A stretch of DNA of 48,015 nt. Origin: an archaeon. Lineage in GTDB: Archaea; Micrarchaeota; Micrarchaeia; CAILAH01. The stretch lies in NCBI GenBank assembly GCA_024274875.1, contig JAJSAH010000001.1, forward strand, positions 1-48,015, in the 5' to 3' direction. A program made the position numbers and the translations under genes. Shown in pieces: positions 7,603 through 42,234 of this stretch (positions are counted from its first letter, which is position 1; every line of letters begins with the position of its first letter). Below the pieces are notes generated by a model that was not told where the DNA came from, made no database searches, and saw only the letters and a program-made list of their open reading frames with translations.

Positions 7603-8079
7603 ATGATTTCTAAAACTAAAAAAAACAAAAAAGCAGGAAAAAAGGCATTAGCCTGGATTGGCGCTTCAATCATGGTGGCTGGATTGATGGTTCCAGGATG
7701 CAATGACAGGGCCTCGATAAATAAAACCACTGCAAAAGTTGCTGTGCACTTGTGCGAGAATGAGAAATCAAAATGCACAAAATTATCCCCTGAATCGAGC
7801 ATTGCGCTAGTTTACCACTGCAAAAATAGCACAAGCTCATGCACTCTAATTGGTGAGAAACGCATTAACACCAAATTGAGTACTATGGGAGCGCGCATAG
7901 AGTTAACCAAAGATTTGGATAAGTTTATAAGAGAGGCATGCAAAAAGCGAACGAACAGGACGCAGGTAATTAGGAAGGAAATTTCCACACTTGAGATAAT
8001 AAACCCTGTCTCAGAGGTTAGGTCGGACCAATCCGTGTGGTACGAAAAGGCAAAAGAGGTTTGCGACAGAATTAAATGA
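7603..8079 (+). CDS. Putative lipoprotein with Cx6CT repeats
   Basis: A 158-aa protein. A lysine-rich start is followed by a hydrophobic stretch (WIGASIMVAGLMVPGC) ending in a Cys that could be a lipid-modified lipobox residue. Two short repeats follow, CENEKSKCTK and CKNSTSSCTL, each C-x6-C-T, which look like small disulfide loops. The rest is charged and helical. Family unknown. The signal supports export; the lipobox is not ideal (Pro at -2), so a plain signal anchor is possible. Confidence 0.6.
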   Translation: MISKTKKNKKAGKKALAWIGASIMVAGLMVPGCNDRASINKTTAKVAVHLCENEKSKCTKLSPESSIALVYHCKNSTSSCTLIGEKRINTKLSTMGARIELTKDLDKFIREACKKRTNRTQVIRKEISTLEIINPVSEVRSDQSVWYEKAKEVCDRIK

Positions 8080-8109
8080 ACTTTTATCACAAGAAACTAA
8101 AAATCGGCA

Positions 8110-8371
8110 CGCCCGGGGCAGGGTTTTCGATTGGGGGCAAAGTCCCCCGCCCCAATGCAGACACCCAACACATGTTTGGGGGGTTGGGTTGAGAAGGGAG
8201 GGGGGCAAAGCCCCCCGCCCTTCTATCGAACCTGCGACCTTCCGGTATAAGGGCGCCTTCCCCGCCATTATCAACCCTTCCGAGCCGAAAAAGGCTGGGC
8301 GCATTCCTCGTCTTATGCAAACATTGCATAAAACATAACAGCCGGACGCTCTACCGCTAAGCTACCCGGGC
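8110..8371 (-). tRNA. tRNA-Asn(GTT) with two introns, one in the T-loop
   Basis: Acceptor GCCCGGG (8371-8365) pairs with CCCGGGC (8117-8111), with discriminator G at 8110. The D arm is GCTT/GAGC. The anticodon stem TCCGG/CCGGA carries anticodon GTT at 8339-8337. Intron 1 is about 89 nt (8335-8247) at position 37/38. The T stem GCAGG (8235-8231) pairs with CCTGC (8122-8118), but the loop is broken after TTCGA by about 101 nt (8225-8125). Removing both gives a regular 72-nt tRNA with T-loop TTCGAAC. The exact T-loop cut may shift by a base or two. Confidence 0.9.
8125..8225 (-). repeat. GC-rich stem-loop element forming the T-loop intron of tRNA-Asn
   Basis: About 101 nt between the two halves of the tRNA-Asn T-loop. 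On the minus strand it begins with an AGAAGGG-C-GGGGGGC / TTT / GCCCCCC-T-CCCTTCT hairpin and ends with a second TTGGGG...CCCCAA hairpin; a CCCAAC/GTTGGG pair lies between. The two hairpins share a core (plus strand gggggcaaag), so the insert looks like two copies of a small palindromic unit. TTCGAT at the 5' junction is complementary to ATCGAA at the 3' junction, which could form the central helix of a bulge-helix-bulge. Its G+C content is far above the surrounding AT-rich genes. Confidence 0.75.
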
Positions 8372-8409
8372 GTGTTATGTATTAAACGCAGTAATATTTT
8401 TAAAAAACA

Positions 8410-9639
8410 CTATGCTTTGCGCGTTCTTGTTATATTGCCTGCCAGCATAATCGGAGTCGGATCTATGTAATACCTTACTCTGCCATCATAATTAGGATGC
8501 GAAGCATAAGTATACATCTCAAAATGCACCTGGTTATCCTCCCATTTTGCATTGCCGGTCTTCCCAGTCATCCCTATCGTATCGCCCCTACCAATTATGT
8601 CGCCTTTACTAAACCCAGCAGGTTCTTTGAGATGCATAAAAGTCATATACACAGTGCGCCCATCTACCTTCGTTTTTAATTTCAAATAATACCCCATAGT
8701 TGGATGTTCCTTGCTGGAAGCATAAACCACTTCACAGTCGGTGGGCGCCTTAATTGAAACGCTTTTATCACCAGTATGCACATCAACTCCAGTATGCCTC
8801 CTAAACAAGCGCTCGTTAGGACGCGACCGATACGCCATGAATCCATCAGTTGTCTCGTCATATGTTCCCACAGACAACACAATGCCTGGGTTTATGGCGC
8901 TCACATAACTGCTGCTCTGCACTTTATCCAAATATGCATAATACACTTTTTTTCCGTTCGCTTTTGTCCCTTCCAGCACTCTTGCAGATATTGCAACTTT
9001 TTTCGGCACAATTTTTGCTCTTGTTATATTCTGTTTTGCAACCTTGGGTTTGCTGCGAGATGCAGATTCCTCCAAACTTTTCAAATACGAGGATAATGTT
9101 CGTTTCCCTAAATATCCATCAATAGTTATCCTTTTATTCGCATAATCAGTAAATCCCTGCCTTCTTAAGCGCTTCTGCAAGTTAACCACTGAACCCATAT
9201 TTAATATTTTAATAAAATGCTCGTTATGTTTTGCAAGTATTCTAACGCTTTTGTGAGTGTTCAACCGAGGGTATATCATTTTCCTTAGCGACGAAAGAGC
9301 GCCTGCGTACTTGCTTCCTCTATTAGAATTCAATGAATCCACCTGCAGCTTCAATATTAATGCTTTCAGCGTCTCCTTCCCGAAAATTCCATCAACTTTC
9401 AGCCCAGCATTGATCGTGTTGTTCAAGAAAACCTGCAATTCCTTGATTGTTTTTATGTTTGCTTGCGAGTATAGAGATTTTGCCAATTCAAAAGCAGTGC
9501 TGCGAACTGCAGAGATTTTAGCAACCCTATTAGTTAAAAGCGATTCAAGCATATGATATTCCATCTCATACGCTTTACTGAGCAGTTCTTCGCGAGATAG
9601 ATTTTTTGCCTGCGCTTGCATGCATATACTTGACACCAA
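8410..9639 (-). CDS. M23/LytM-like protein with two peptidoglycan-binding-like repeats
   Basis: A 409-aa protein. Residues about 60-110 and 150-195 are two PG_binding_1-like repeats (LKVDGIFGKETL; ITIDGYLGKRTL). The C-terminal half is an M23 metallopeptidase fold with zinc ligands H282 and D286 (HTGVDVHTG), a MHL motif and the ligand H372 in QVHFEMY. The usual HxH is QVH, so the proposed general-base His is replaced by Gln370. No clear signal peptide is seen. Archaea lack bacterial murein, so it may act on bacterial walls, on another polymer, or as a non-catalytic binder. Stand-alone gene. Confidence 0.8.
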   Translation of the reverse strand: MVSSICMQAQAKNLSREELLSKAYEMEYHMLESLLTNRVAKISAVRSTAFELAKSLYSQANIKTIKELQVFLNNTINAGLKVDGIFGKETLKALILKLQVDSLNSNRGSKYAGALSSLRKMIYPRLNTHKSVRILAKHNEHFIKILNMGSVVNLQKRLRRQGFTDYANKRITIDGYLGKRTLSSYLKSLEESASRSKPKVAKQNITRAKIVPKKVAISARVLEGTKANGKKVYYAYLDKVQSSSYVSAINPGIVLSVGTYDETTDGFMAYRSRPNERLFRRHTGVDVHTGDKSVSIKAPTDCEVVYASSKEHPTMGYYLKLKTKVDGRTVYMTFMHLKEPAGFSKGDIIGRGDTIGMTGKTGNAKWEDNQVHFEMYTYASHPNYDGRVRYYIDPTPIMLAGNITRTRKA

Positions 9640-22637: not shown

Positions 22638-22747
22638 AGCCCCCGGTGGGATTTGAACCCACGACCCCTCGCTGTCCCAGCAATTCTCCTTTTTGGCACG
22701 CAAAAAGGCGCTACGAGGCGAGTGCTCTACCGCTGAGCTACGGAGGC
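22638..22747 (-). tRNA. tRNA-Thr(CGT) with anticodon-loop intron
   Basis: Acceptor GCCTCCG (22747-22741) pairs with CGGGGGC (22645-22639), allowing one G-T; discriminator T at 22638 as usual for archaeal tRNA-Thr. The D arm is GCTC/GAGC. The anticodon stem CTCGC/GCGAG carries CGT at 22715-22713. A 38-nt intron (22711-22674) sits at 37/38. The T arm GTGGG-TTCAAAT-CCCAC is unbroken. The mature RNA is 72 nt. Confidence 0.92.
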
Positions 22748-32435: not shown

Positions 32436-32551
32436 TGCAGGGGGCAGGATTCGAACCTGCGAAGGCGCTAGGCCACCAGATTTCTTACCGCGCAATCGCA
32501 GCAAGAACACGGCCTTGAGTCTGGCGCGTTTGACCGCTCCGCCACCCCTGC
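32436..32551 (-). tRNA. tRNA-Leu(CAA) with anticodon-loop intron and long variable arm
   Basis: Acceptor GCAGGGG (5' end 32551) pairs with CCCCTGC, with discriminator A at 32436. The anticodon stem CCAGA/TCTGG carries CAA. An intron of about 32 nt sits after G37. The long variable arm TGGCCTAGCGCCTTC is the class II mark of tRNA-Leu. The T arm GCAGG-TTCGAAT-CCTGC is unbroken. Confidence 0.92.
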
Positions 32552-42067: not shown

Positions 42068-42234
42068 CGGGCCCGGTGGGATTCCCAAACTTTATGGAAC
42101 TTCAAGCGCACCATCAGTGTTTGAACCCACGACCCTCAGCTTTCCTAAAAGAAACTTTTTTTCGCCAGCGCTTTTAAACATCCTAAAAAGGCTGTTAGAA
42201 GGCTGCCGCTCTATCCAAACTGAGCTACGGGCCC
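42068..42234 (-). tRNA. tRNA-Arg(TCT) with two introns, one in the T-loop
   Basis: Acceptor GGGCCCG (42234-42228) pairs with CGGGCCC (42075-42069); discriminator G at 42068. The D arm is GCTC/GAGC. The anticodon stem GCAGC pairs with GCTGA with one mismatch at 27/43, and the anticodon TCT is at 42199-42197. Intron 1 is 54 nt (42195-42142) at 37/38. The T stem GTGGG/CCCAC is complete, but the loop is cut after TTCAA by about 38 nt (42120-42083). Removing both gives a 75-nt tRNA with loop TTCAAAT. An alternative cut gives TTCGAAT; both make a proper T-loop. Confidence 0.88.

Follow-up and report, generated by a model that had tools for sequence, protein, structure and literature searches.

Whether a tRNA gene that is interrupted twice can be the cell's working copy, and how its inserts may have been gained, are the questions raised by a tRNA-Asn gene on the minus strand of the DNA analysed here. 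The window, by which we mean the whole stretch of 48,015 nucleotides, makes up a single contig of a Micrarchaeota MAG (833 kb in 24 contigs) that is 89.7% complete and has four relatives in its family. Judging from the sequence, we put the probability at about 0.88 that this gene (8371..8110) is the cell's working tRNA-Asn and that the insert in its T-loop is an archaeal tRNA intron at site 59/60 that is spliced by proteins.

Exons and splice register of the tRNA-Asn gene

On the minus strand, the locus reads as tRNA-Asn(GUU) in three exons separated by two introns, one of 89 nt in the anticodon loop and one of 101 nt in the T-loop. Exon 1 (8336..8371) holds the acceptor 5' strand, the D-arm and the anticodon 5' half to A37, and its 36 nt are unchanged in the related genome G003. 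The 89-nt intron (8247..8335, site 37/38) separates it from exon 2 (8225..8246), which carries A38, the anticodon 3' stem, the variable loop, the T-stem 5' strand and T54-T59 (TTCGAT). After the GC-rich 101-nt intron (8124..8224, site 59/60), exon 3 (8110..8123) supplies C60 and the 3' strands of the T-stem and acceptor, with G73 at 8110. The original prediction held that all stems form once about 89 and about 101 nt are removed, and this is what we observe: without the inserts, every position pairs in the acceptor stem (7/7), in the anticodon stem (5/5) and in the T-stem (5/5), and the sequence that is left is a 72-nt tRNA-Asn(GUU). The gene was called by neither ARAGORN nor Rfam. Elsewhere in the window, Rfam but not ARAGORN finds intron-bearing Thr-CGU (22638-22747), Leu-CAA (32436-32551) and Gly-CCC (224-409), all on the minus strand.

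The T-loop junction that fits bulge-helix-bulge (BHB) geometry is 59/60 (TTCGAT/AGAAGG...TCGAAAA/C, with slashes at the cuts), one base later than the 58/59 junction first proposed. The register is fixed by the T-stem and leaves no free choice: the three nucleotides before C61 form the 3' bulge (AAC), and the four that precede it, CGAA (8126..8129, minus strand), pair 4/4 with T-loop positions 54-57 (TTCG) as the intron half of the central helix, followed by the bulge AA/C. In canonical 37/38 introns, the cut falls after the second bulge nucleotide and position 38 is the sole exon base of the bulge; because the same rule is followed here, the Asn T-loop intron is placed at 59/60. The tRNA-Thr introns of loci L010 and L013 also fit a cut after the second bulge nucleotide. 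The predicted mature T-loop, TTCGATC, occurs uninterrupted and with the same T-stem in the tRNA-Asn of relatives (L111 and L113; the loop also in L114). That introns outside 37/38 are known in archaea, as had been pointed out, holds for this site, since 59/60 is already a documented archaeal tRNA intron position (PMC4090602).

Folding of the 136-nt T-loop region gave a z score of -3.2, with 0/200 shuffles equally stable. The pairing of TTCGAT with ATCGAA across the junctions, noted from the letters, is borne out by pair probabilities of 0.88-1.00 in the central helix of the folded T-arm, and the 3' bulge is also predicted. The predicted fold pairs A58-U59 with A-U, and because the 5' bulge is thus closed by two A-U pairs, we describe the motif as a relaxed rather than a strict BHB. 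The two GC-rich hairpins described earlier are likewise present. Hairpin 1 (GAAGGGcGGGGGGC ttt GCCCCCCtCCCTTC) lies at 8193..8223, and hairpin 2 (TTGGGGCGGGGGACTTTGCCCCCAA), which has the same core, at 8130..8154 with approximate ends, both on the minus strand. At the 37/38 junction, inspection by eye found no strict 4-bp/3-nt BHB; the orthologous 37/38 introns measure 276 nt in G003 (with an N gap inside) and 84 nt in G004, and their 3' ends are conserved. A group I intron or other known RNA family was also considered for the T-loop insert and rejected, as Rfam gave no match within 8000-8500 up to E = 1. At 101 nt, the insert is too short for a group I or other catalytic intron.

Use of the T-loop site in the genome and its relatives

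At least nine tRNAs of this genome, tRNA-Asn included, are interrupted at exactly 59/60. The other eight, assigned to isotypes by eye from the anticodon loop, are Arg-UCU, Met-CAU, Ala-UGC, Phe, Val-UAC, Arg-UCG, Pro-UGG and Tyr; the further introns were located through weak covariance-model hits combined with D-arm matches, and nine is therefore a lower bound. Some 38 tRNA genes were seen in the genome, so that roughly a quarter carry a T-loop intron, with lengths of 14-162 nt. The original prediction had regarded a hairpin-built T-loop intron of the Asn size as unusual, which does not hold given this range in nine tRNAs and introns of up to 125 nt in the tRNA-Asn of relatives. The window itself contains a second doubly interrupted gene, tRNA-Arg(UCU) (42069..42234, minus strand), in which one intron sits in the anticodon loop and another, of 38 nt (~42119-42082), in the T-loop at 59/60; it was missed by ARAGORN, and by Rfam even at E<=5. 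The T-loop intron of tRNA-Val(UAC) comes close to a textbook BHB, and the interrupted tRNA-Ala(UGC) lies upstream of what reads as 23S rRNA. The Rfam cut-off was not reached by eight of the nine 59/60-intron tRNAs; a standard tRNA model thus overlooks these eight, and the number of tRNAs in such archaea has probably been underestimated.

The ends of these introns share a register. When positions 54-57 were compared with intron nucleotides -6..-3 in 16 Micrarchaeota T-loop introns (nine from this genome), all four pairs formed in 13 and three of four in the remaining three, namely the tRNA-Ala of G000 and G003 (an A opposite A57 in both) and the tRNA-Asn of G004. Random registers drawn from the same 16 introns gave a mean of 0.35 perfect 4-bp helices and a maximum of 5 in 200,000 draws, against the 13 observed. 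In an earlier set of nine T-loop introns, a register shifted by one base or more left no perfect helix. Scanning with a loose pattern for additional T-loop introns gave no usable signal, with 661 matches versus 829 in the reversed control.

These ends bear on the idea that a mobile element recently inserted into the T-loop and turned tRNA-Asn into a pseudogene while another tRNA-Asn serves the cell. The insert does have hairpin DNA in common with an array beside the initiator tRNA-Met, and TCGA stands at both of its ends, as a 4-bp target duplication would give. However, the same position is occupied by inserts with helix-forming ends in nine of the genome's tRNAs, the insert ends of tRNA-Met and tRNA-Pro are complementary (TTCA and TGAA) rather than direct repeats, and the stems and mature T-loop of tRNA-Asn are intact. 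A second, uninterrupted tRNA-Asn, which had been named as the mark of a pseudogene, was searched for, and no second tRNA-Asn gene was detected in this 89.7%-complete genome, where one could sit in the missing part. We therefore regard a pseudogene as very unlikely.

Comparison across the class places the window's gene among several of its kind. A 59/60 intron is present in 5/54 parsed tRNA-Asn genes, with lengths of 36-125 nt (the window's included), and relatives of several of the five have none. Because related Micrarchaeota tRNA-Asn genes carry introns at the identical site, the insertion in the window is not a chance event. Within the family, the tRNA-Asn of G003 has no 59/60 intron and that of G004 has a 36-nt hairpin intron whose sequence is unrelated to the window's; this presence and absence, together with the unrelated sequence, leads us to conclude that the site has been reused, with repeated gain or loss. 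A candidate T-loop insert in the tRNA-Asn of G059 was rejected, as that tRNA is intact and the insert belongs to a downstream fragment. In this locus (L055, G059:C2), the 3' part of tRNA-Asn has been copied downstream of the intact gene, with a 56-nt insert in the T-loop of the copy.

The enzymes for such splicing are encoded in the host genome. Its splicing endonuclease, a 386-aa protein, matches the ARMAN-2 enzyme 4fz2 along its whole length (E 2e-124) and contains a Pfam N domain and two catalytic-domain stretches, the composition of a three-unit alphaN-alpha-betaC chain (~390 aa). The residues aligned with the Y236/H251/K282 triad and with the ASL pair Y160/K161 are conserved, and both the triad and the ASL Tyr-Lys are required for activity in the ARMAN-2 enzyme (PMC12397907, PMC6379350). 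By its sequence, the enzyme is of the three-unit epsilon type (epsilon2, ARMAN-2 type), one of the three types (alpha2, alpha-beta or epsilon) for which a genome search had been suggested. RtcB is encoded as well. Two spliced introns served by a broad-specificity endonuclease, as originally put forward, is thus the best-supported reading, with splicing as its predicted element. An endonuclease hit was found in 60/60 Micrarchaeia genomes tested, nearly always as a ~340-490 aa chain. A separate 149-aa protein with the tRNA_int_endo domain alone is encoded at L044:1315-1764 (G000:C14), and small extra paralogues like it occur in 5/5 family genomes and in some other Micrarchaeia. A tie between T-loop introns and a second small paralogue proved not to be strict: G055 has such an intron, and its two hits are two parts of the epsilon chain.

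With the endonuclease present, it is extremely unlikely that the hairpins are retained and that tRNA-Asn works with an expanded T-arm. The insert does fold as an extension of the T-arm, but the conserved YGAA register would be unexplained without splicing, and the T-loop must pack on the D-loop.

Hairpin sequences shared between tRNA introns

Over 155 nt, the T-loop intron of tRNA-Arg(UCG), 162 nt long, is 96.8% identical to the anticodon-loop intron of the initiator tRNA-Met. Both consist of a 67-nt hairpin repeat, which the T-loop intron of tRNA-Tyr also carries at ~80% identity. In this genome the repeat occurs only inside these three tRNA introns. The T-loop introns of the G001 tRNA-Asp and the G002 tRNA-Gln open with related sequence, and in G003 such sequence lies within the initiator-Met intron and just 5' of tRNA-Ala. 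Members of this family have their common hairpin beginning at the 5' splice site, whether the intron is at 37/38 or at 59/60, while T-loop introns have a 3' end (often TGAAAA/T) specific to that site. Misassembly may affect repeats located at the ends of contigs; the genes for tRNA-Asn, Arg-UCG and Tyr, however, are internal to their contigs and have assembled sequence on both sides. Many contigs of the MAG start or stop inside or close to a tRNA gene, which looks as though assembly had been broken by tRNA introns, and the end of contig C11 (L149) repeats the tRNA-Gly(CCC) sequence found at the window start (1-409). Taken together, the alignments show, for this one family, transfer of hairpin sequences in this lineage from one tRNA gene and site to another.

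The Asn intron is linked to the initiator tRNA-Met by a different match. Its first half (51 nt including hairpin 1) is 94% identical to G000:C8:42149-42199, and the match begins within ~3 bases of the 5' splice site. This sequence belongs to an array beside the initiator tRNA-Met and not to another intron: locus L031 (G000:C8:41859-42318) contains that tRNA, whose anticodon-loop intron comprises 2.3 tandem 67-bp hairpin units; after the gene comes a tandem array of 137-bp units in which the tRNA 3' end is repeated together with the hairpin found also in the Asn T-loop intron. From the 51-nt match, the Asn hairpin cargo probably arrived by the same route as the 67-nt family. The Asn hairpin is not a dispersed repeat of the genome, its core being found only at the tRNA-Asn locus and the C8 end, and a viral origin was set aside when the 25-nt core had no exact match in IMG/VR.

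The arrays could also be taken to mean that the inserts are not mobile introns but mobile elements of DNA, placed by integrase-type insertion with the symmetric T-arm as attachment site and splicing as a by-product. The 137-bp tandem units that repeat the tRNA 3' end plus hairpin would fit such events, as would the partial tRNA-Asn 3' end with its 56-nt T-loop insert downstream of the intact gene in G059 (L055), and the same explanation has been given for the Caldiarchaeum tRNA-Thr (PMC3293823). Against it, introns of 14-162 nt are too small for a recombinase gene, the 67-nt repeat is confined to tRNA introns in this genome, and its hairpin starts at the 5' splice site in 37/38 and 59/60 introns alike. 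We consider this explanation unlikely.

The T-loop as a proposed docking site

Our best reading remains normal BHB-type splicing at an already documented non-canonical site, with the T-loop of this lineage acting as a docking site for hairpin-bearing introns. In the precursor, UUCG (54-57) would form a helix with CGAA from the intron 3' end, flanked by two 3-nt bulges; the epsilon-type endonuclease would cut each bulge after its second nucleotide, and RtcB would ligate the exons into a functional tRNA-Asn. The short 3' end of the intron (YGAA + 2 nt) would give the missing BHB half to the nearly invariant T-loop UUCR, with the hairpin cargo positioned at the 5' splice site. Because the UUCR exon half is near-identical in all tRNAs, a 59/60 intron should be tolerable in any of them and the T-loop could be a general docking site. 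This geometry offers a simple reason for a hotspot, as the exon half of the splice motif is already in every tRNA. More tentatively, and with somewhat less than even confidence, we hypothesize that mobile introns of this Micrarchaeota family use the T-loop as a universal docking site: the portable YGAA + 2 nt would complete a BHB with any tRNA's invariant UUCR, and the hairpin repeat at the 5' splice site would move, amplify and spread between tRNAs and between 37/38 and 59/60, possibly via excised intron RNA.

The archaeal 59/60 introns described in Crenarchaeota and others share the site, the BHB or relaxed BHB and often an accompanying 37/38 intron (PMC4090602); here, in contrast, a single Micrarchaeota genome uses the site in at least nine tRNAs, and several introns are large GC-rich hairpins or tandem repeats. 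The transposed introns of the Thermoproteales type are near-identical in different tRNAs and positions (PMC4033280, PMC4090602), as are those of Arg-UCG, Tyr and initiator Met; for the Asn intron the likeness is limited to the 51 nt matched in the array. The present case concerns another phylum, and what the introns have in common is a hairpin repeat placed at the 5' splice site, combined with a 3' end specific to the site and in some instances amplified in tandem. The ARMAN-2 epsilon2 endonuclease and multi-intron tRNAs (PMC12397907, PMC6379350, PMC4033280) represent the same enzyme type, catalytic and ASL residues and wider lineage. No description of T-loop 59/60 introns as a hotspot within this lineage was found in the open-licence literature searched, and one may exist elsewhere. 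The disruption model for the Caldiarchaeum tRNA-Thr (PMC3293823) likewise links intron gain to repeats near tRNA genes and to tRNA fragments, whereas no recombinase-bearing element was seen tied to the insert here and the arrays are of ~137-bp units.

How tRNA introns are gained is still an open question. Here a single small genome has near-identical hairpin introns at two sites and in several tRNAs, with kin in sister genera, which makes donor, acceptor and boundaries directly comparable, and their sharing suggests a clue to how introns spread among tRNA genes. As a separate observation, the introns of two distinct tRNAs (L019 and L020, G000:C24 and C13) share an exact 17 nt containing GGTGCGCAGG, which hints at intron exchange.
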